Shown here one piece after another: positions 2,530 to 18,937 of a stretch of DNA of 28,756 nucleotides. The DNA lies in the IMG/VR virus record IMGVR_UViG_3300036985_001274, positions 1 through 28,756 of that record; one strand, written 5' to 3'. The stretch comes from a virus. The position numbers and the translations under genes are program-made. Below the pieces are notes generated by a model. The model searched no databases and was not told the DNA's origin. It saw only the letters and a program-made list of their open reading frames with translations. Each line of letters begins with the position of its first letter. Within the stretch, counting starts at the first letter, position 1.

Positions 2530-2768
2530 TTCTTACCTCTCAATAGTAAAATAGTTCTTAATTTCTGTTCCAACCTAATCATATCGTTATCTAGGACTCT
2601 AATCTGGTCAATCAGCTCTACAAGTACGATGTAAGCTTCCTCAAGTATTGGCTTGACCATAGTTGTAGTCCAAATCCAGACAAAGTAAACTATATAACCC
2701 ATTCCACCAGCAGCTATTATAGGAAAACCATACTGATTTATATAATCTGCAAGCTGTTTAAGGTCCAT
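2526..2768 (-). CDS. Holin-like small membrane protein (second of a pair)
   Basis: This 80-residue protein has one hydrophobic segment near the N terminus (YGFPIIAAGGMGYIVYFVWI), followed by a helical, charged C-terminal part that probably forms a coiled coil and ends RGKK. The layout and its place just before the endolysin point to a holin or antiholin. I chose the ATG at 2768 rather than the one four codons upstream at 2780. A GGAGGT lies inside those extra codons at a proper distance from 2768, and the result begins MDL like its neighbour's MDF. It overlaps the neighbour's end by 11 bases. The shared GFPI-AA-GM-Y pattern suggests the two arose by duplication. Holin function is inferred from context. 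Confidence 0.6.
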   Translation of the reverse strand: MDLKQLADYINQYGFPIIAAGGMGYIVYFVWIWTTTMVKPILEEAYIVLVELIDQIRVLDNDMIRLEQKLRTILLLRGKK

Positions 2769-3009
2769 TAGCACCTCCATCTTGCTTTTTAAGGTCTAAA
2801 GCTTGACTAACTAAGTCATCTATCTGAACTATATCCTGCGACATAGCCGAAACTCTAATGTCTAGCTGCTTTATAATTGCAATTAGGTTCTTAACCTTCT
2901 CAAGTACAGAATCTAAGATAAACTTCTGCGTGAGGAAGACAAAATACATCCCCACGCAAGCAGCTGCTATTGGAAATCCTACTTCGGTTATAAAGTTCAG
3001 AAAATCCAT
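2758..3009 (-). CDS. Holin-like small membrane protein (first of a pair)
   Basis: This 83-residue protein begins MDFLNFITEVGFPIAAACVG and has one membrane segment of roughly 20 residues (about 8-30). A helical tail follows, with repeating hydrophobic positions, and a short polar end. It resembles the next gene in size, topology and the GFPI-AA start of the membrane helix, so the pair may be holin and antiholin or two subunits. No good ribosome site precedes its ATG. The stop of the 51-residue gene lies 10 bases before it, so it may be read by coupled translation. Other small phage membrane proteins look like this, so the lysis role depends on its neighbours. Confidence 0.58.
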   Translation of the reverse strand: MDFLNFITEVGFPIAAACVGMYFVFLTQKFILDSVLEKVKNLIAIIKQLDIRVSAMSQDIVQIDDLVSQALDLKKQDGGANGP

Positions 3010-3184: not shown

Positions 3185-3637
3185 CTATAAAGGAGGGGTC
3201 GGGAAAATTACATTAAATGGAAAACCTTCTTGAGCTGTTACATCTCGTAACTCTTGTCTGTAAGTTGCCCATGCAACCTTATCTACAGGAGCGTCAGCTA
3301 CTTGAGTCCAGTCTGAATCTTTCAAGAGTTGGTTTCGTTGGTTTCTAACTTCATTTTCTTTAGCTAATTGAACTTTTAAAGCATCGTCTTGAAGTTCAGA
3401 TTCTGTTTTAGCTACTTTTAAACAAGTATAAACCTTTCCATCTTTTATATAAGGTTCAACTGTTTCAAGTTTTTCTACAGACGAGTCAAACATTTCCCAA
3501 ACTACAACTTCCATTAAAGAGTTTTCAACTAAAAACTCTGGTTCAACTCCTGTAGAAGGGAAAGATACATTAGGGAATAGTTCAACAAGAGTACCACGTT
3601 GTCCTACTATCCCATTATCTATTTTAGCTACTTGCAT
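3185..3637 (-). CDS. Tail-fibre assembly chaperone-like protein (Phage_tail_APC type)
   Basis: This 150-residue protein ends with the signature of small proteins encoded after phage fibre genes: RNQLLKDSDWTQVADAPVD, then W-YRQELRD, then GFPFNVIFPTPP (residues 99-149). The middle (residues 77-100) is a helical, charged stretch that may form a coiled coil. These proteins help fibres fold or attach, or cap the fibre tip. The gene lies directly downstream of three fibre genes in the leftward operon, which fits. An AGGTAA precedes the ATG. The C-terminal motif makes the family call fairly firm. The exact role, chaperone or structural, is not settled by sequence. Confidence 0.72.
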   Translation of the reverse strand: MQVAKIDNGIVGQRGTLVELFPNVSFPSTGVEPEFLVENSLMEVVVWEMFDSSVEKLETVEPYIKDGKVYTCLKVAKTESELQDDALKVQLAKENEVRNQRNQLLKDSDWTQVADAPVDKVAWATYRQELRDVTAQEGFPFNVIFPTPPL

Positions 3638-3646
3638 TGTTATTAC

Positions 3647-6193
3647 CTATATAGTAACTGTTGTTGATGTTAAACTTGCTGTTCCAGAAGTAAGAGAACT
3701 TGCTGCGTCATTTGGATATCCAACCTTAGCAGTCCAAGAGTTTGGAAAATTATAGGATGTTCTAGTGTACGCAGAAGTACCATCCACTTCCGTAAATGAC
3801 CCATTGGATAAAGTAATATTATCAGTTGTATCGGCTAAAGACCCTGCTGTACTAGTATTAAAATTATAAGTACTCATTAAATCAGCAGTAGTGATGGTAG
3901 TTGTTCCTATAGTAACAGTTCCAGCCAGTTGCATAGTACTTAATCTGTGTAAAAAGACATAACCGGACCCAGCCTCGCCAGCTACATGAATAGTACCATT
4001 AGAAGCTATTGCAATAGCTCTCCCCTGGTCAGAGAAGGATGCTAAACCAATAGAAGCAGCCATTCTACATACACCTTGAGATGTATAACTGGTAACTAGA
4101 CATTGTCGATTAGTGCTTAATGGGTTATAAAAACCTGAACAATAGATATTTTCAGAAGAATCTATAGTTAAATCATAGTAAGTAGCTCCGAATGTACCTA
4201 ACGCAAGTCCTTTAGACCATTGTAGCGCCCCAGTAGAATCATATTTTGCTAAAAAAGGAGCGGTCGCTGCTGTACTACCTCCAACTACATAAATATATCC
4301 CGTAGAACTAATTTTTACAGCATAACCAATGCTGCCAGTAAATCCTGTAGCTTGTTTTTTCCATAGAATAGTAGAGCCAGTTGAATCTATTTTCCATAAA
4401 GCCAACACCCCACCATAATCTCCTGTGATGTATAAATTACCACTAGAATCTATATCAAGACCATAAGAAGGGGCAGAAAAACCTATTATTATTTTCTGCC
4501 ACTGTAAAACTCCACTTGAGTTATACTTCATTAAAGTAAGTGTCCCAGAACCTTGCTTTATAGCAATATAAAGATTATTAGCTGAATCTACTTTAATCCC
4601 AAAATTACTAAATTGCCATGATATATTAGAACTTGTAAGAGCCCTTAACCATTGATAGTTACCATTAGAGTCGTATTTGGTTACAAGTAATAGCCTATTC
4701 GTAGCATCATACCCAACTGAATATACATTATTAGAAGAATCTAAAGTTATTTTGTACCCTCGACAATAACACAAAGAGGAAGCTATATTTACTCCCCATA
4801 TATTAGTTAAATTATTATCATATTTACTAATATACATTGAAGAGTATGTTGTAGAGTTAGTACTTGTACCTGCTAAATATATATTATTGTTGGAGTCTAA
4901 AATTATCCCATTAAAGTTGTCATTACTATACCCACTATTAAATAATGTCGCTACTCCCCCTACAGTACTACTACTAATTAAAGAATCAGCTTCTACATAA
5001 GTTAAAACTGTCTCTGTTAAAGTTGAAGAAGAATATACCATCGAAGTTGTACCTATTACATAAGTTCCAACCTTAGTACCATCTGAAGGTAAACAAGCAG
5101 TAAAAATATCTGAATTTGTTTGGGTTATCCTCCCTGTAATATAGATATTAGTTAAAGTAGCTGTGATAGCATACCCTATATCTGTACTTGCAGTACTATT
5201 TGCTATAGTTCTTTGCCATTGTTGAGTACCAGCAGTATCATATTTAGCAACAAATATATCATAACCAAGAGTACCAGTTGTGGTTGTGCTGCTCGAGCCT
5301 ATTATATAGATTTTATCTAAAGAATCTATACAAATTCCTAACCCCGAATCATTTCTACTTAAGGTATTTCCATTAGCTAACTGGCGAGTCCATTGAATAA
5401 CGCCAGAAGAATTAAATTTTACTAAAATAATATCAATATTGTGCGAAGTATTAGTCCCTACTCCATAAATATTTCCGCTAGAATCAGTAATCACTCCGTA
5501 AAGATACTCAGCACCTGCTGGAAGTTGTTTTGCCCATTGCTTAATACCAGAAGAATTTAATTTAATTATAATTCCTCTAGAAATAGACGTTACATTTCCC
5601 ACAACATAAATATTACCAGAAGTATCTATAGTAATACTTCTAATATATACATAATTTGCAGTAGCGTAATGTATGGCAGTATTAAATTGAATAACTCCAT
5701 TTAAATCATATTTACATACAAACCCAACAGCCCTAGTTAAACCGATAAAACTGCCCTCTATAGAACCTGTAGTATAAATATACCCAGAACTATCAATAGT
5801 AATACCTGTAATTTTATCGTTATTAGCTAATCCATACTTTTTTTGCCAGATTAAAGTACCTGAAGTATTATATTTAGCTAATATACAAGTAGTCCCAGTT
5901 TGACCGCCTATATATACATTAGAAGAACTATCTACAGTTATACAATAACCAACGTCAACTATAGAAGCTGCTCCAATAGTAACCTGCCACTGTAAAGTCC
6001 CACTAGAATTGTATTTAACTAAAACAGCATCATATTCTGTTCCAGTTTGAATTTGTCCAGTTATATAGGTATTTCCAACACTATCTACAGCAATACCATT
6101 ACCTACATCAGCTTCTGCTCCTACTAGTTTATTCATCCAAGCAGGAGTACTAGTAGATGATGGTGTTACCATTATAATATCTCTAGTACTCAT
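3647..6193 (-). CDS. Receptor-binding or fibre protein with two seven-repeat SBBP beta-propellers
   Basis: This 848-residue protein is built from beta-propeller (SBBP-type) repeats, each with a core like IDSSGNIYVVG followed by KYNSSG and QW. I count seven repeats over residues about 24-378 and seven more over about 425-763, which fits two seven-bladed propellers in tandem. Each block ends at an IGTT motif (380-383 and 762-765). The first is followed by a 45-residue Ser/Thr-rich linker and the second by an 85-residue C-terminal beta domain. There is no signal peptide. Its start overlaps the stop of the fibre gene before it (TAATG), and a fibre assembly gene follows. It most likely sits at the tail tip and binds a surface polysaccharide or protein. 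The propeller call is strong. The binding role is inferred. Confidence 0.75.
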   Translation of the reverse strand: MSTRDIIMVTPSSTSTPAWMNKLVGAEADVGNGIAVDSVGNTYITGQIQTGTEYDAVLVKYNSSGTLQWQVTIGAASIVDVGYCITVDSSSNVYIGGQTGTTCILAKYNTSGTLIWQKKYGLANNDKITGITIDSSGYIYTTGSIEGSFIGLTRAVGFVCKYDLNGVIQFNTAIHYATANYVYIRSITIDTSGNIYVVGNVTSISRGIIIKLNSSGIKQWAKQLPAGAEYLYGVITDSSGNIYGVGTNTSHNIDIILVKFNSSGVIQWTRQLANGNTLSRNDSGLGICIDSLDKIYIIGSSSTTTTGTLGYDIFVAKYDTAGTQQWQRTIANSTASTDIGYAITATLTNIYITGRITQTNSDIFTACLPSDGTKVGTYVIGTTSMVYSSSTLTETVLTYVEADSLISSSTVGGVATLFNSGYSNDNFNGIILDSNNNIYLAGTSTNSTTYSSMYISKYDNNLTNIWGVNIASSLCYCRGYKITLDSSNNVYSVGYDATNRLLLVTKYDSNGNYQWLRALTSSNISWQFSNFGIKVDSANNLYIAIKQGSGTLTLMKYNSSGVLQWQKIIIGFSAPSYGLDIDSSGNLYITGDYGGVLALWKIDSTGSTILWKKQATGFTGSIGYAVKISSTGYIYVVGGSTAATAPFLAKYDSTGALQWSKGLALGTFGATYYDLTIDSSENIYCSGFYNPLSTNRQCLVTSYTSQGVCRMAASIGLASFSDQGRAIAIASNGTIHVAGEAGSGYVFLHRLSTMQLAGTVTIGTTTITTADLMSTYNFNTSTAGSLADTTDNITLSNGSFTEVDGTSAYTRTSYNFPNSWTAKVGYPNDAASSLTSGTASLTSTTVTI

Positions 6194-7599
6194 TATTTAA
6201 TATCCTTTCCAAGAACTAGACCTGTCCAAGTAGTCCCACCATCATGGGTAAAGAATCCAATAGAATCTCTACCAGCAGTAGTTAATGTAGGAGCAGTACC
6301 ACCTACCCATTTAACAGTCCACCATGTAATAGTCGCACTTCCACCATTAGTTAAGTCTAAGATAAAACTTCCAGTTGTTCCTGCTGAAGGAGTATTGCTC
6401 ACAGTTAAAGTTGTTGCGCCAGATATTGTTTTAGTAAAATAATTACCCGTAGCTAAGTTTATATCATTAGCTGACATTGCTACTTTAACTTCTTTAGTAC
6501 CTGTTATTGTAGGTGTAGTTAAAGCAGGATTAGTCCCAAATACTAACGCCCCCGAACCTGTCTCATCGGTAACAGCCGCTGATAAATTAGCACTAGATGG
6601 AGTTGCTAAGAATGTACTTACACCAGTACCTAAACCAGTTACACTAGAGATTGCTACAGTAACTGTCCCATTAGCCGCAGCAGTAAGTCTACCTTGAGCA
6701 TCTACAGTAATATTAGCTGTTGTATAACTTCCCGCTGTAACTGCTGTATCTGCTAAAGCAATAGTCCCAGTAGTTGTTATAGTACCGCCCGAAAAACCTG
6801 TGCCTGCTGTTATAGAAGTTACTGTACCCGTATTAGCCGTAGCTGCTGTAGCAATTCCATCTAATTTAGTTTTATCAGCAGAACTCATAGAACCAGCTGC
6901 ACTTGTAGTAGCTGCTGCAATACTAATGACAGGGGTTGCAGTTCCTGTTGCTACTGATATAGGTAAAGTTCCAGTTACTTCAGTTACAGTACCTCCACCA
7001 CCTGCAGGTCCTTGAGGTCCAGTTGCGCCAGTAGGTCCAGCTACACCTTGAATACCCTGCGCTCCTGTAGCTCCTGTAGGTCCAGTTGCGCCAGTATCAC
7101 CTTTAATAAGAATCCATTCATAATCTCCAGCTGAGGTAGATTCTGTAGTAGATGTTTTATTAACTGCAAGACCAATATAACTTTTACCAGTTGGGGTGTT
7201 ACTTAACCCAGTTCCAATAGCATCATCGGCATATTTAACCCAAGTATAAGTTGGACTACCATCATTACCTTTAATCTGACTCCAAGTATAATCAGTTGCA
7301 GTTGTGGATTCGGTGGCTGAAGACTTATTTACGGCAATACCTATAAATAACTTATTAACTGGAGAATCAGAAAGTCCAGTACCTATAGAATCGTCCGCAT
7401 ACTTTATCCATGTATATAAAGAAGCTCCATCTCCAGCTACTAAATCCCAGTCTGTAGTTACAGTTGGTAGCGCACTTGTAGTTGTTTTAGCTAAATAACT
7501 TGCACCTTGATACCTAACTAAGTCCAAAGGTTTATTAGGACCAGCTGTATAAGTTCCTTTAGGTACTATAGCAACCCTACCTAAGTTTGTAGTCGTCAT
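6193..7599 (-). CDS. Tail fibre protein with duplicated module and collagen-like stalk
   Basis: This 468-residue fibre has a modular layout. Residues 7-55 look like a small surface or carbohydrate-binding module (GTYTAGPNKPLDLVRYQGAS). Two close copies of a roughly 50-residue module follow at 61-110 and 117-166 (YTW-KYADD-IGTGLS, then IG-AVNK). Residues 167-200 are a collagen-like run of about eleven G-X-Y triplets. Residues 200-370 are low-complexity beta-rich fibre shaft, with patterns such as GTVTSITAGTGFSGG and TVDAQGRLTAA. The C-terminal 100 residues form a compact Trp-containing head ending LVLGKDIK. A GGAG lies eight bases before the ATG, and its start overlaps the previous stop. It is a trimeric fibre by analogy with similar phage proteins. 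Confidence 0.8.
   Translation of the reverse strand: MTTTNLGRVAIVPKGTYTAGPNKPLDLVRYQGASYLAKTTTSALPTVTTDWDLVAGDGASLYTWIKYADDSIGTGLSDSPVNKLFIGIAVNKSSATESTTATDYTWSQIKGNDGSPTYTWVKYADDAIGTGLSNTPTGKSYIGLAVNKTSTTESTSAGDYEWILIKGDTGATGPTGATGAQGIQGVAGPTGATGPQGPAGGGGTVTEVTGTLPISVATGTATPVISIAAATTSAAGSMSSADKTKLDGIATAATANTGTVTSITAGTGFSGGTITTTGTIALADTAVTAGSYTTANITVDAQGRLTAAANGTVTVAISSVTGLGTGVSTFLATPSSANLSAAVTDETGSGALVFGTNPALTTPTITGTKEVKVAMSANDINLATGNYFTKTISGATTLTVSNTPSAGTTGSFILDLTNGGSATITWWTVKWVGGTAPTLTTAGRDSIGFFTHDGGTTWTGLVLGKDIK
7016..7096. repeat. Direct repeats encoding the collagen-like stalk
   Basis: The 18-base sequence GGTCCAGTTGCGCCAGTA occurs exactly at 7016-7033 and again at 7079-7096, and a CTCCTGTAG unit is tandemly repeated between them. 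This reflects G-X-Y triplets of the fibre gene on the other strand. Such repeats allow stalk length to change by slippage or recombination. Confidence 0.8.
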
Positions 7600-9638
7600 T
7601 AATTATACTCCGAAATGAATTCACCATCTACTATAGACAGAGTGAAAGAGGATGAATGGTCTACTATAAGTTCACCATCAACTATAGAGAAAGTTGAGAA
7701 AGCACCACTACCTCCGCCACCACCACCTACAGCTGAAATTAAACCAGAACCATCTACAAGAATCGTAGTACCATCAACTTTAACACCGCCAAGAGTAGTT
7801 GGAGTAGCTGCGGGTAGGCTGTAAGAACTAGCTACTATAATATCCCCAGAGCCAAGTACAGAAGTTCCGTTGATTGTCTTGATTGTAGTCCCGCTAACTA
7901 GAGTAGCTTGTTTGTTGTTAAATATAGTCCAGTCAGTTGCGCTTAAAGCACCACGAGAAGTGGAGTTAGCTGTGGGTAAGTTTAAAGTAATTACTGGAGT
8001 TGTTGTAGAGTTAAGTACTGTAGAAGTTACGTCAGTTCCATTAGAGGTTAATGTCAAAGCAGCTACAGAAGCTACCCCACCACTCCCAGCTGACCCAATT
8101 TGAACATAATTTGTACCTGCCCATCTGTAAGTTAAATTAGTAGCTAATGCTATATAGATTTTACCAGATTCTCCTGTAGATGGAAAAGCTGCTAAATTTG
8201 CAAACTCTAATATATCATCTACATAAGAAGGTAAATTACTTGAAGGAACTAACCCATTTACCAAAGGAGCTACAGAAACGCCAACTTCAGTACTTGGAAC
8301 TGCATCAGTTATACCGTAAGCATTAAGAGTAGTTAAATTTTCCCCAGCAGTTACAATGCCTTTGCTATTTACAGTTATTTTAGTATAACTTCCCGCACTA
8401 ACTCCAGAAGTTTTTAAACTTGCAACTCCAGTAGTATTAGCTGACCCATCAAAAACCCCAGAAGTATATTCAACATCTCCAGTAATTGAGATAGTTCTAG
8501 CTGTATGAAGTTTCATAGCTTCGTCAGCTGTCCCTGCAGAGCTAATCTCTACATAAGCAGAACCAGACCAGCGGTAAATCTTATTAGTATCTAAAACTAG
8601 ATAAATAGTAGTAGTAAAAGCAGTAGTTGGTAACTGTGCAAAAGTGCCAAACTCTTGAATCTGGTCAACTGCAGCTGGCATTTGAGAAGTAGTTAATTTC
8701 CCAGTAGGACCTAAAGTAGCTACGCCAGAATCTGCTCCTAAAAGAACAGAATTAACTCCGTCAAGGATATTATAACCTTCTAAAGTAGAAGGTTTACCTG
8801 TTACATTCGAGAAATCTACACTAGAAGAACCACCAGCAGACCCTACATTAGTATAAGAAGTTCCAGACCAACGATAAGTAGCTTTAGTATCAACAGCTAC
8901 ATAAATAGTCCCAGAAGAACCTGTAACTGGAAAATTAGTAACAGAAGGATACTCTACAATAGAATCTACATAAGCTGGAAGTTGACTAGTAGGTACTTTT
9001 CCATTAGTTAAAGTGGCAATGCTAACACCAACTTCTGCAGAATTTACACCATCAGCTATACCATAACCTGCAAGAGTAAATGGTTTTCCAGTTAAAGTTT
9101 GAAAACTTGGAGTAGCACTGGCAACAGCTGTGTCAACTTCAGCCTTTGTATAAGCATCAGTAATTCCAAAAGTTGCAATAGTAGCTGGATTACTTCCGCT
9201 AGTAATAATCCCTTTGTCATTTACTGTAAGTTTTGTATAAGTGCCAGCTGTTACCCCAGAATTAGCTAAAGTAGTAACTGTAGAACCAGCTGTAGTTGTT
9301 ATAGCTCCGCTAAAAGCTGGTAATCTAGCTGCATTTAAGTATCCAGAGATAATTACTGACGCAGGGAATTCTGGAATTAAGGTGTAAGCTTCTGTTAGTC
9401 TTCCTTTAGCATCTACTGTAAAACTAACAACAGTACTGGTAGTTCCATAAGAGCCAGCCGCTACAGTTGTATTTTTTAAAGTAGTTGTTAGATTAGCTCC
9501 AGTAGTACCTGTACCTGTAATATCTCCTAGTAAAGTAATATTAGGACTTACATCCGTAATGCCAGGAGGTCCTTGTTCTCCAGCAGAGATAATTACACTA
9601 GAGGTTAAAATCTCATTAATAACTATTGTATCAGCCAC
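7599..9638 (-). CDS. Tail fibre protein with three copies of a shaft module
   Basis: This 679-residue fibre begins with a GTG codon preceded by GAGGTG. The N-terminal part (residues 1-90) includes a short G-PPG turn and a LGDITGTGTTG segment typical of fibre shafts. A module with the pattern LP-YVD-I-E(F/Y), then FP-TG-SG-IY-A-DT, YRW-GT-Y and GSAG occurs three times, at about 219-269, 319-369 and 469-518. Shaft motifs such as TVDAKGRLTEA and TVNDKGIITSG recur between them. Residues 637-643 are a glycine hinge, followed by two copies of a short SIVDGE(L/F)I strand at the end. It overlaps the upstream adaptor gene by eight bases. It may be the proximal fibre segment that links adaptor and distal fibres, but that order is inferred. 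Confidence 0.8.
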   Translation of the reverse strand: MADTIVINEILTSSVIISAGEQGPPGITDVSPNITLLGDITGTGTTGANLTTTLKNTTVAAGSYGTTSTVVSFTVDAKGRLTEAYTLIPEFPASVIISGYLNAARLPAFSGAITTTAGSTVTTLANSGVTAGTYTKLTVNDKGIITSGSNPATIATFGITDAYTKAEVDTAVASATPSFQTLTGKPFTLAGYGIADGVNSAEVGVSIATLTNGKVPTSQLPAYVDSIVEYPSVTNFPVTGSSGTIYVAVDTKATYRWSGTSYTNVGSAGGSSSVDFSNVTGKPSTLEGYNILDGVNSVLLGADSGVATLGPTGKLTTSQMPAAVDQIQEFGTFAQLPTTAFTTTIYLVLDTNKIYRWSGSAYVEISSAGTADEAMKLHTARTISITGDVEYTSGVFDGSANTTGVASLKTSGVSAGSYTKITVNSKGIVTAGENLTTLNAYGITDAVPSTEVGVSVAPLVNGLVPSSNLPSYVDDILEFANLAAFPSTGESGKIYIALATNLTYRWAGTNYVQIGSAGSGGVASVAALTLTSNGTDVTSTVLNSTTTPVITLNLPTANSTSRGALSATDWTIFNNKQATLVSGTTIKTINGTSVLGSGDIIVASSYSLPAATPTTLGGVKVDGTTILVDGSGLISAVGGGGGGSGAFSTFSIVDGELIVDHSSSFTLSIVDGEFISEYN

Positions 9639-9993
9639 GAGTCACCTCACCTTTAACTGAAACCTTACCTTCTACAAGCCTAGTAACTGTACTATTTAAA
9701 TGGTAGATTTCTAAATCATATACAGCATCTTTAATTACTGACAAATTAGCAGTATCTTCATTAGTGATTTCAAGATGAATCTTACCAGCTCCTCCATCTA
9801 TAGCTAATCTACCATTTTCAGTACTAAGTTCTATAATAACTGTAGGACTTTCTAAAGAAGCTCTAATCTGCATTTTAGCAGATACATTTGTAAGGTCTAT
9901 AGGCGTAGTTTTATCTGATGCTCTCCATAAAAAATTATGGCTATAAGTAGCACCTTGTTCTATAACTGGTAAATTAACTTTAGCAGCTGTCAT
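9631..9993 (-). CDS. BppU-like upper baseplate or fibre-adaptor protein
   Basis: This 120-residue beta-rich protein matches small proteins usually encoded before phage fibre genes: an early EQGATY-HNF strand, a DLTNVSAKMQIR segment, ENGRLAIDGGAGKIHLEI in the middle, YDLEI, and an ending that reads GKVSVKGEVTRG. Such domains form the N-terminal part of receptor-binding adaptors (BppU type) that link fibres to the tail. Here the domain stands alone rather than fused to a fibre, though it overlaps the next fibre gene by eight bases. AAGG precedes the ATG. The fold call is by pattern only. The adaptor role is inferred from gene order. Confidence 0.6.
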   Translation of the reverse strand: MTAAKVNLPVIEQGATYSHNFLWRASDKTTPIDLTNVSAKMQIRASLESPTVIIELSTENGRLAIDGGAGKIHLEITNEDTANLSVIKDAVYDLEIYHLNSTVTRLVEGKVSVKGEVTRG

Positions 9994-11330: not shown

Positions 11331-13258
11331 TGTCCGAACTTAACTTAGAAACTAGTTGGGGAGAAAGACTCTTTATAGGTAAAGCTTTACAGTTATTTAA
11401 AAAACCTAACAGGATGTCCACAAGAGAGTGGGCAGAAGCTAATAGGTTCTTAACCTCAGACGTTTCTTCACGTCCAGGAAAGATGAACTGTATGGAAACT
11501 CCTTGGATGCTTTATGTAATGGAGTGTTTAGATAATCCAGAGATTATGGTTATTGTAGGTAAGAAGTCAGCTCAGATTGCTTGGACAGAAACTATTAACA
11601 ACTGGATAGGTAGAACTATCGACCTAGACCCAAGAAACATAATGATTGCTTTTCCTAGAGCAGCTTCAGCACAGAAGTTCTACAAGGAAAAGTTAGTCCC
11701 TTATATTAAGCACACACCTGTACTTAAAGAAAAGATTGGAAGTTTAGCTAAAGTAAGTCATAAACATATACCTTATGATGGAGGTTTCTTAGTTCTTGCA
11801 AACGCAGGTACAGCTGAAGACGGAAAAAGTTCGGTAATACCCTATGTAGTAGTTGAAGAGCCAGATGGTGTTAAGAAAGACGTTAATAATCAAGGGGATG
11901 GGATGTCTATCCTCAAACAACGGATGAAGTCCTTCTCAGACAGTAAACTTATATATGCTGGAACTCCTACAGATAAAGATTTTAGTCAAGTAGATTTAGC
12001 TTATGAGCAAAGTAATAAGATGGTTTACCTAGTTCCTTGCCACCTCTGTAATGAGTTTCATTCTCTAAGTTTTGACAACTTAAAGTGTGATGAATGGCAA
12101 GAAAGAAGAATAGACGAGTTCTACGGAATATATAATCCCGAAACAGCTTACTATGAATGTCCCTTTTGCTTAGGAATATGGAACAATGACGATAAGAAAC
12201 GAAATGTTATTGCTGCTCTCGACCATCATAATCTGGGTTGGGTTAGTTCTAACCCTAGCGTATCTGATACTTATGGATTCGCTTTCAATGAATTGCTAAG
12301 TTCCTTTGAAGCTTCAAGTCTTGTCAATCTAGCTAAACAGAAACTTAAAGCTCAGAAAGCTTATGACAATGGGCATGAAGGTTTGATGAAGAGTTTTACT
12401 AACAACTCTAAAGGTGAAGCTTACGTTCCTCTAAATGCTGGTCTAAATATAGACGAGATGAAAGGTAAAAGGATGAACTATCCAGAAACTATAGTTCCTT
12501 ATGAAGGTCTTATCCTAACTGCAGGTATTGACGTTCAGCATAATCGTTTTGCTATAGTAACTAGAGCTTGGGGGAGAAATGGCAACTCTTGGCTAGTGAA
12601 TTGGATTGAAATCTTTGGAGATGTACTTGATTACAGTGATGCAGTCTGGGGAAAACTATCTGATTATATTTTCCAGAAATGGGCACATGGAGCTGGTAAA
12701 GGTAAGTTCTTAACTATCTCAGCTGCTTCTATTGACTCTGGAGATGGTGCAACAGCTGAACTAGTGTATCGCTGGGTAGCTGAAATGAACTTAAAGCATC
12801 AATATATCTTTGCCTGTAAAGGTATTGGAGAACTTAAATACAATAACTATGAGATATTTAATGAACCAAACACTATGGAAGCTACTTCAAGTACTCAAGA
12901 AAGAAAGACATTAGCTCAAACTATGGGTGTTAATGTATTTCCTATGGGAGCTTATCGTGCACATGAGGAAGTTCTTAGAAGATGTAACCTTAAAGGCAGC
13001 CGAGATAGACACTATCACTGTGAAACTATGTATGGTGGTTACGAAGAAGGAGTTCTTTCTTGTCGTAAAACATTTGAAACAGATACAACTAAAGCTGGCT
13101 ATAAGCTAATTGCAGGTAAACATAAAGAAGCTATTGACTGTGAAAAAATGGCTCTTCATGCTGCTTATGCTATTCAGCTTAGAAGTTATAATAACTTCCA
13201 TTGGCAAGCTTTAGAAGTTCATTTACACGCTAATTCAGAATCTGGAGAGTTTAAATGA
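11330..13258 (+). CDS. Terminase large subunit, GpA family (ATPase and nuclease)
   Basis: This 642-residue packaging motor is almost the same length as lambda gpA (641). It pumps DNA into the prohead with ATP and cuts at the packaging site. The N-terminal motif (residues 25-65: NRMSTREWAEANRF to TPWM) is typical of the family. The ATP-binding P-loop is the unusual GpA form (GKKSAQIAWTE, 77-87). A VVVEEPDG at 173-180 is the Walker B candidate. A four-Cys zinc knuckle lies at C237, C240, C277 and C280. The nuclease begins at GIDVQ (399-403), with D401 a likely metal ligand, and includes SIDSGDG near 468-473. The stop overlaps the start of an HNH gene (ATGA). Confidence 0.92.
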   Translation: MSELNLETSWGERLFIGKALQLFKKPNRMSTREWAEANRFLTSDVSSRPGKMNCMETPWMLYVMECLDNPEIMVIVGKKSAQIAWTETINNWIGRTIDLDPRNIMIAFPRAASAQKFYKEKLVPYIKHTPVLKEKIGSLAKVSHKHIPYDGGFLVLANAGTAEDGKSSVIPYVVVEEPDGVKKDVNNQGDGMSILKQRMKSFSDSKLIYAGTPTDKDFSQVDLAYEQSNKMVYLVPCHLCNEFHSLSFDNLKCDEWQERRIDEFYGIYNPETAYYECPFCLGIWNNDDKKRNVIAALDHHNLGWVSSNPSVSDTYGFAFNELLSSFEASSLVNLAKQKLKAQKAYDNGHEGLMKSFTNNSKGEAYVPLNAGLNIDEMKGKRMNYPETIVPYEGLILTAGIDVQHNRFAIVTRAWGRNGNSWLVNWIEIFGDVLDYSDAVWGKLSDYIFQKWAHGAGKGKFLTISAASIDSGDGATAELVYRWVAEMNLKHQYIFACKGIGELKYNNYEIFNEPNTMEATSSTQERKTLAQTMGVNVFPMGAYRAHEEVLRRCNLKGSRDRHYHCETMYGGYEEGVLSCRKTFETDTTKAGYKLIAGKHKEAIDCEKMALHAAYAIQLRSYNNFHWQALEVHLHANSESGEFK

Positions 13259-13815
13259 GTAAATTACAATTTTTAGATAATTTATATAAAACTAAAATAT
13301 TACCTAATATAATTATACACGAGTCTGGTTGCCATCTTTTAAAAACTCATCTAACTAACGATGGGTATGCTAGAACTTTTATCTCTAAAATATATGAAGG
13401 AGTTAATACTAAAATGGGTTCTCATAGACTAACTTATCAAGTGGTCAATAAACAAATATTACCTTCAGATACTCATGTACTTCATAAATGTGATGTAAGA
13501 AATTGTGTAAACCCAGACCATTTATTTAGCGGAAGTAACCATGATAATATACTAGATAAAATAGCTAAAGGCAGGATGCCTTCTATGAAAGGTAGTAAAA
13601 ATCCTAATAGTATTTTGACTGAGCAGCAAGTTTTACACATTTATAGTAATAAATACCTTCCAAGATTTAAAAGAAAAACTATAAAATATTTCCAAGTTTT
13701 ATATAACATATCTAAATCAACTGTTGTAGATATTTTATATAATAAATCGTGGAAAGAACTAACTTCTTTCTACTCTGAACAATATTTAGAACTTAAGGAA
13801 TTAAGACATGGCTAG
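13255..13815 (+). CDS. HNH endonuclease with C-terminal helix-turn-helix, inserted between terminase and gpW
   Basis: This 186-residue protein has an HNH_3-type core at residues 57-107. H57, H77, C79, C84, N86 and H89 fit the zinc-bound beta-beta-alpha-metal site, and a SNHDNILDK follows. Residues 121-168 form a helix-turn-helix like those of mobile endonucleases (LTEQQVLHIY, then ISKSTVVDIL, then W). The gene is visibly richer in A and T than its neighbours. It overlaps the terminase stop by four bases and the gpW start by eight, so it is neatly fitted into the late operon. It is most likely a free-standing homing endonuclease, but HNH proteins beside terminase (HK97 gp74 type) also help DNA packaging, so a packaging role is possible. 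Confidence 0.85.
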   Translation: MSKLQFLDNLYKTKILPNIIIHESGCHLLKTHLTNDGYARTFISKIYEGVNTKMGSHRLTYQVVNKQILPSDTHVLHKCDVRNCVNPDHLFSGSNHDNILDKIAKGRMPSMKGSKNPNSILTEQQVLHIYSNKYLPRFKRKTIKYFQVLYNISKSTVVDILYNKSWKELTSFYSEQYLELKELRHG

Positions 13816-18457: not shown

Positions 18458-18937
18458 ATGCTTACGCAAGAAAGATTAAAAGAAAGTTTTACCTATTTAC
18501 CAGAAACTGGTGAATTTATTAGAAACAAAGCAGGTAATAAACCTAAAGGACATATAAGTGGTGTAGTTGATACTACTACAGGTTATGTTAGATTAGGTGT
18601 TGGTAATAGAGTATATCATGGTCATAGATTAGCTTTTCTTTATATGACTGGAGAAATACCAAAAGAGATAGACCATATTAACCGAAATAGAAGTGATAAT
18701 CGGTGGTGTAATTTACGACCAGTAACTTCTACTGAAAATAGTATGAACCATCCTAGACGTGTAGATAATACTACTGGAATTACTGGAGTATCTTTTGTGC
18801 AAAATAGATATTGGACTAGAATTCAAGTTAATAGAAAATCTATAACTTTAGGTAGATTTAAAACTTTAGAAGAAGCTGCTAAAGCTAGAAAAGAAGCAGA
18901 AAGATTCTACGGATTTAGCGAAATACACGGGACATAA
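18458..18937 (+). CDS. HNH endonuclease with AP2 DNA-binding domain (homing type)
   Basis: This 159-residue protein has an HNH_3 core (residues 54-96) with H56, the IDH motif at 71-73, and N81 and N85, followed by an AP2-like three-strand DNA-binding domain (104-152), including the GVSF and YWTRIQVNRKSITLGRF strands and the EEAAKARKEAERFYG helix. This pairing is typical of phage homing endonucleases. It begins after AAAGGAG and sits alone between the capsid and tail-joining genes, behind its own promoter-like element and hairpin. It probably spreads by cutting phages that lack it. The AT-rich codon use differs from that of the capsid gene. It does not interrupt a gene in this copy. Confidence 0.85.
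   Translation: MLTQERLKESFTYLPETGEFIRNKAGNKPKGHISGVVDTTTGYVRLGVGNRVYHGHRLAFLYMTGEIPKEIDHINRNRSDNRWCNLRPVTSTENSMNHPRRVDNTTGITGVSFVQNRYWTRIQVNRKSITLGRFKTLEEAAKARKEAERFYGFSEIHGT

Follow-up and report, generated by a model that had tools for sequence, protein, structure and literature searches.

Propellers are known among the receptor-binding proteins of phages, examples being gp45 of phi11, which has five blades, P2 of PRD1, and the seven-bladed gp131C of phiKZ (PMC4901313, PMC6115969). In phages K1-5, SP6 and G7C and in Klebsiella phages, a short conserved peptide at the N-terminus attaches a second receptor-binding protein to an adapter that is encoded nearby (PMC6872550). Propeller receptor-binding proteins and short docking peptides are therefore both established; what the locus described here adds is a correspondence between the class of an N-terminal tag and the class of the domain, here called the socket, that precedes it. 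A literature search conducted largely outside subscription journals returned no paper on tandem SBBP propellers of phages, and none on a match between adhesin starts and upstream domains across folds, on DUF7483, or on a metagenome-wide exchange of peptide adapters. Receptor-binding heads set the host range, and in environmental phages they are mostly unannotated.

The DNA analyzed (the window) is a linear virus record from IMG/VR of 28,756 bases. On its minus strand, an open reading frame at 3647-6193 starts with ATG and encodes, without interruption, a protein of 848 residues, referred to below as the adhesin.

Predicted architecture of the adhesin

The open reading frame matches the Pfam family SBBP (PF06739) with 106.9 bits (E 4.6e-31; cut-off 20.5), and individual repeats also exceed the cut-off. 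A repeat profile trained on domains from related proteins, with the adhesin itself left out, found exactly 14 domains of 12-65 bits each in the adhesin, seven at residues 5-380 and seven at residues 402-754, and not a single domain in 200 shuffles of the same composition. The two groups of seven SBBP-type repeats that a sequence-only reading had described were thus recovered by an independent profile.

In the full-length AlphaFold2 model (16 sequences; pLDDT 77.6, pTM 0.59), 28 strands (7 x 4) span residues 19-369, and a second such set reaches residue 751; at this pTM the angle and relative placement of the two propellers are not fixed by the model. Folded alone (AlphaFold2, 23 sequences), the second half reached a pTM of 0.82 and again gave 7 x 4 strands, at residues 414-751, the first of which (414-419) occupies the closing-strand position of the last blade. 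For both propellers, the best match among solved structures was the SBBP propeller of CylK (propeller 1: Z 44.4, 1.9 Å over 338 residues, 28% identity; propeller 2: Z 41.5, 2.5 Å over 341 residues, 21% identity), and designed seven-bladed propellers were also found near the top. The rings predicted for this SBBP protein close into propellers; seven blades were counted twice and no other number was seen, and a single long solenoid is ruled out by the full-length and second-half models. The predictions therefore support an arrangement of two separate seven-bladed SBBP propellers in tandem, as the sequence-only reading had proposed.

The blade counts of the relatives, which step from 7 to 14 and 21, agree with this arrangement. 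Seven blades were scored in 24 of the 42 complete relatives, fourteen in the window's protein and in that of L040, and twenty-one in that of L062. The remaining ones are mostly one to three blades short, in diverged proteins, and the doubles of L066 and L208 fall shorter still. Except for single-propeller proteins with extra domains, lengths step in the same manner (416-498, 808-859 and 1228 residues). A tree of 28 propellers was mostly unresolved and does not separate fusion from old duplication. The best matches of the window's propellers are found in single-propeller proteins, the pair not being each other's closest kin, which makes a recent tandem duplication an unlikely origin of the doubling.

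From its N-terminus, the adhesin can be divided into five parts, all on the minus strand. A putative docking tag, recognized by its match to tags of the same socket class, comprises residues 1-18 (MSTRDIIMVTPSSTSTPA; 6140-6193). Propeller 1 (residues 19-371; 5081-6139) and propeller 2 (residues 414-751; 3941-4954) are each defined by seven profile matches and the CylK match, the former also by the strands of the full-length model and the latter by the model of the second half. The linker between them (residues 372-413; 4955-5080) holds the end of LPSDGTKVGTY, an IGTT hairpin with predicted strands at residues 376-380 and 383-389, and a Ser/Thr-rich stretch. The C-terminal region (residues 752-848; 3647-3940), of low pLDDT over most of its length, contains a second IGTT hairpin, another Ser/Thr-rich stretch and a closing SLTSTTVTI before the stop, a motif common to relatives. 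The IGTT motifs (residues 380-383 and 762-765) had been taken to end each group of repeats. They do follow each ring, and the Ser/Thr-rich stretch after each is indeed different; in the models, IGTT forms the first strand of a separate beta-hairpin just past the ring and not part of the last blade, so the blades occupy residues 19-751. IGTT is the local form of a family-wide element, LPSDGTKxGTY, that follows the propeller, and a scan for this element alone yielded 43 stretches, 40 of which encode a relative of the adhesin.

The fibre cluster and its exchangeable slot

The plus strand of the window carries genes for terminase, portal, protease, decoration, major head, neck and tape-measure proteins. 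On the minus strand, from 9993 downwards, lie genes for an LtfC-like protein, a fibre protein, a collagen-containing fibre protein, the adhesin, a Phage_tail_APC protein, two small paralogues and a lysin. The LtfC-like protein (9631-9993) matches PHROG 1084 and 3304 (L-shaped tail fibre assembly), its match to Pfam LtfC being below the cut-off. The proximal fibre gene P0003 (7599-9638; 679 residues) has tail fibre and minor tail matches in PHROG. The gene directly upstream of the adhesin, P0002 (6193-7599; 468 residues), has tail and tail-fibre matches in PHROG and shares one base with the adhesin gene, its stop overlapping the start of the latter. It encodes a duplicated YTWxKYADD repeat, a collagen-like stretch of GXY repeats at residues 167-203 (6991-7101; PF01391 at 22.1 bits, below the cut-off of 27.2) and, as its last 109 residues (6196-6522), a domain with a PHROG tail fibre match that we call the S1 socket. 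Downstream of the adhesin lies a putative tail fibre assembly chaperone (3185-3637; Phage_tail_APC, PF16778, 69.6 bits, cut-off 26.6), which comes after the adhesin in relatives too, some relatives having no recognizable APC there. The sequence-only reading had set the double propeller against the trimeric shafts of most phage fibres. This contrast needs correcting: the propeller does not replace a shaft, but lies behind a gene with a collagen-like stretch and looks like a head plugged onto that fibre.

Several features of the surrounding genes were recorded along with the cluster. In P0002, a unit of about 55 residues with YTWxKYADD is duplicated at residues 59-167, and relatives of P0002, mostly over this region, occur in more than 300 viral contigs. 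Two adjoining small genes next to the lysin (2526-2780 and 2758-3009) both match PHROG 18771; their relatives match each other at 25-29% identity, and the pair looks like an old tandem duplication, possibly of a holin-like gene. Two HNH endonuclease genes (13255-13815 and 18458-18937) lie among the head genes, and some sister phages lack the first or have one elsewhere, beside the terminase. An open reading frame of 217 residues (1458-2111) matches only the C-terminal part of the large subunit of ribonucleotide reductase (PHROG 84, positions 803-973); given its conservation of 82-87% in sister phages, it could be a stand-alone fragment that has a role of its own. The adjoining open reading frames 25-714 and 704-1324, the first matching replication initiation PHROG 4402, look like paralogues, both being matched by a single sister protein, at 65% and 35%. 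The right part of the window had no near match in the phage collection, and when the terminase alignment was used to search genome contigs for a host, no relative was found.

Phages whose terminases are 93-95% identical hold different proteins in the adhesin slot. In the sister L150, the adhesin is a double propeller with 33% identity to that of the window; identity amounts to 92-96% for the terminase, portal, protease and major head protein, and to 60-65% for the nearest fibre gene and for the chaperone. In L063, L064 and L065, the slot holds FN3 proteins, two of the three with an Lcl_C match below the cut-off, and no APC match was found in these three loci. A receptor-binding protein would be expected to be exchanged in this way. 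The tail receptor-binding design suggested by the sequence-only reading is strengthened by gene context and by the exchange of the gene between near-identical phages. Genes with starts like those of HNH or GIY-YIG homing endonucleases lie right behind the socket gene in L064 (11110-11610), L226 (5338-6078), L227 (3727-4359), L231 (5348-5944) and L263 (5330-5887), and they might drive adhesin exchange.

Correspondence between adhesin tags and sockets

The S1 socket is 59-87% identical in relatives, and a search of viral contigs gave 147 relatives of it. In a first set of loci, ten distinct genes end in S1, and the next gene encodes a propeller in eight; the other two both belong to L078, which also has an APC protein and in which LamG/DUF7483 or DUF7483 proteins follow as heads. 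A second socket class, S2, is found in L063 and lies before propellers in L019, L022, L024 and L033 as well. In L064 and L065 a third socket type forms a separate gene of 130 residues, found before a propeller in L034 as well. Two scans gave 79 S1 loci and 80 S2 loci, and the gene behind the socket opens in a class-specific manner, roughly MSxRDI(L/V)MAAAG behind S1 and MPLLxTxGAASAxGFG behind S2.

To assign socket classes from the adhesins, nearest neighbours were determined for tag residues 2-23 in 141 adhesins. These residues gave the correct class in 140 of 141 cases, and residues 61-140 in 78%. The difference was seen within single folds: tags assigned 45/45 DUF7483 adhesins and 17/17 propeller adhesins correctly, and protein bodies 67% and 53%, respectively. 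When propeller tags were compared solely with tags of other folds, 16 of 17 were still correct. The window's own tag is closest to tags of non-propeller adhesins behind S1 (score 37, versus 21 for the other class); taken alone, it is predicted to be disordered, with residues 1-14 at pLDDT < 50 in AlphaFold2. Contig L160 carries both socket classes, and the gene behind each opens with the tag of its class. Judged by eye, four isolates with assigned hosts fit the rule (Limnohabitans phage DC31 and Roseobacter phages CRP-603, CRP-3 and CRP-738); no clear tag was seen in a Pseudomonas phage and a Microcystis phage, both isolates whose socket is S1-like, and two S1 propellers, those of L062 and L208, have weak or atypical tags. 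At the level of sequence comparison, the start of an adhesin matches the class of its socket and not the fold of the adhesin. A search of solved structures with the socket profile gave chance-level matches only and no significant relative.

These results suggest a way in which tips that differ widely in fold are swapped among phages. We lean towards a general tag-and-socket code in environmental phages, in which the first ~20 residues of an adhesin, irrespective of its fold, would correspond to the C-terminal domain encoded by the fibre gene in front of it, and heads with one to three propellers, FN3 or lectin-like domains would be exchangeable as whole units among close relatives as well as across unrelated phages. 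If the match is physical, an adhesin could be recognized from its first residues and its upstream neighbour, with no need to know the fold, and the swapping of quite different heads between phages would be simply explained.

The match could also reflect mere linkage, the adjoining DNA serving as an anchor for recombination between genes whose proteins are not in contact. The tag directly adjoins the socket, exchange points fall just past the tag, and several loci have homing-endonuclease-like genes at the junction, all as linkage would have it. We nevertheless regard this explanation as fairly unlikely: the protein pattern of the tag is kept while sockets of the same class drop to about 60-65% identity, it is kept in isolates of unrelated genera, and docking of spikes on adapters via N-terminal peptides of 7 or 11 residues is established (PMC6872550).

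Proposed function and relation to described systems

The two faces of the propellers vary at different rates. In the usual propeller topology, the B-C and D-A loops share one face, opposite the A-B and C-D turns. Between close propeller pairs, the B-C plus D-A loops differ at 292/1135 sites and the A-B plus C-D turns at 80/721, so that one face varies 2.3 times as often as the other; these pairs overlap in part, so the p value of the comparison is not to be relied on, but the independent pairs window/L009, L019/L024 and L043/L056 agree. Lengths behave likewise, with standard deviations of 3.6 (B-C) and 2.4 residues (D-A), versus 0.3 and 0.7 for the A-B and C-D turns. The asymmetry points to the B-C/D-A face as a candidate binding face, and the slow A-B/C-D turns may instead reflect needs of the fold.

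That the turns could be slow purely for reasons of fold also suits an explanation in which the propellers are structural or spacer parts of the tail that bind no receptor and vary through relaxed constraint, and the PHROG match of the adhesin is labelled 'virion structural protein'. This we consider improbable, because the exchange of the entire protein for unrelated FN3 or LamG/DUF7483 heads is more in keeping with an adhesin than with a scaffold, and the adhesin is far more diverged than the adjoining fibre genes (33% versus 60-65%). An enzyme acting on the host surface is more improbable still: CylK, an enzyme, does top the matches of both propellers and some propellers are glycosidases, but only the CylK propeller (CylK residues 249 on) was aligned, a common propeller need not mean a common reaction, and the N-terminal region of CylK has no counterpart in the adhesin.

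We consider it likely that the 848-residue protein is an exchangeable receptor-binding head of a tail fibre. The gene order, the exchange, the tag-socket match and the loop asymmetry were observed and the two propellers predicted; virion location, physical docking, chaperone assistance and ligand are inferred. The head would consist of two seven-bladed SBBP propellers in series, held by an N-terminal tag of about 18 residues that docks on the 109-residue C-terminal domain of the collagen-containing P0002, and the Phage_tail_APC chaperone from the next gene downstream may help to fold or mount it. The faces with long B-C and D-A loops would touch the host surface, most likely a glycan, and the opposite face with short fixed turns would serve as scaffold. 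Two propellers would provide two binding faces per chain and therefore more avidity or two specificities, a question for which the steps of one, two and three propellers form a natural series. Socket, tag, head and chaperone would be exchanged as one cassette, which would explain why the head is a propeller in some phages and an FN3 protein in others that are nearly identical, and of the LamG/DUF7483 type in further phages that have the same socket.

The propeller of CylK (PDB 7ron, 7fh6), an enzyme of Cylindospermum licheniforme, belongs to the same SBBP repeat family and has the same fold as both predicted propellers of the adhesin. CylK combines one propeller with an N-terminal region, whereas the adhesin has two propellers and lacks that region, the CylK-type Friedel-Crafts N-terminal domain being absent, with just 18 residues preceding propeller 1. 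The SBBP proteins of cyanophages and other isolates in PHROG 8510 (S-PM2, ACG-2014h, Leptospira phage LE1 and Salicola phage SCTP-2) are likewise SBBP propellers, partly annotated as virion structural proteins, with about 23-31% identity to the adhesin; that of SCTP-2 alone covers most of it, and the likeness concerns the proteins themselves.

Among the receptor-binding propellers, gp45 of phi11 is a five-bladed propeller within a trimer, and the rings of the adhesin, being seven-bladed, fall outside this type. The phiKZ protein gp131C is seven-bladed, as are the adhesin rings, and it was not among the best 50 structural matches listed for propeller 1. Neither these two nor PRD1 P2 is described in PMC4901313 and PMC6115969 with two or three propellers per chain or with this tag and socket. 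The sequence-only reading had called a double propeller at the tail tip unusual; propellers as such are known in phage receptor-binding proteins, and it is the tandem repetition and the matched tag and socket that are unusual. The closest likeness in docking is to the K1-5/G7C/KP32 type, where the short N-terminal peptide is conserved, just as the adhesin tag is common across folds behind the same socket. The adapter in K1-5, SP6, G7C and the Klebsiella phages is T4gp10-like and the heads are mostly depolymerases (PMC6872550), whereas here the socket, for which the profile found no significant solved relative, is probably a different domain of ~109 residues, and a single class of tag is used by heads of the propeller, FN3, LamG/DUF7483 and other types.
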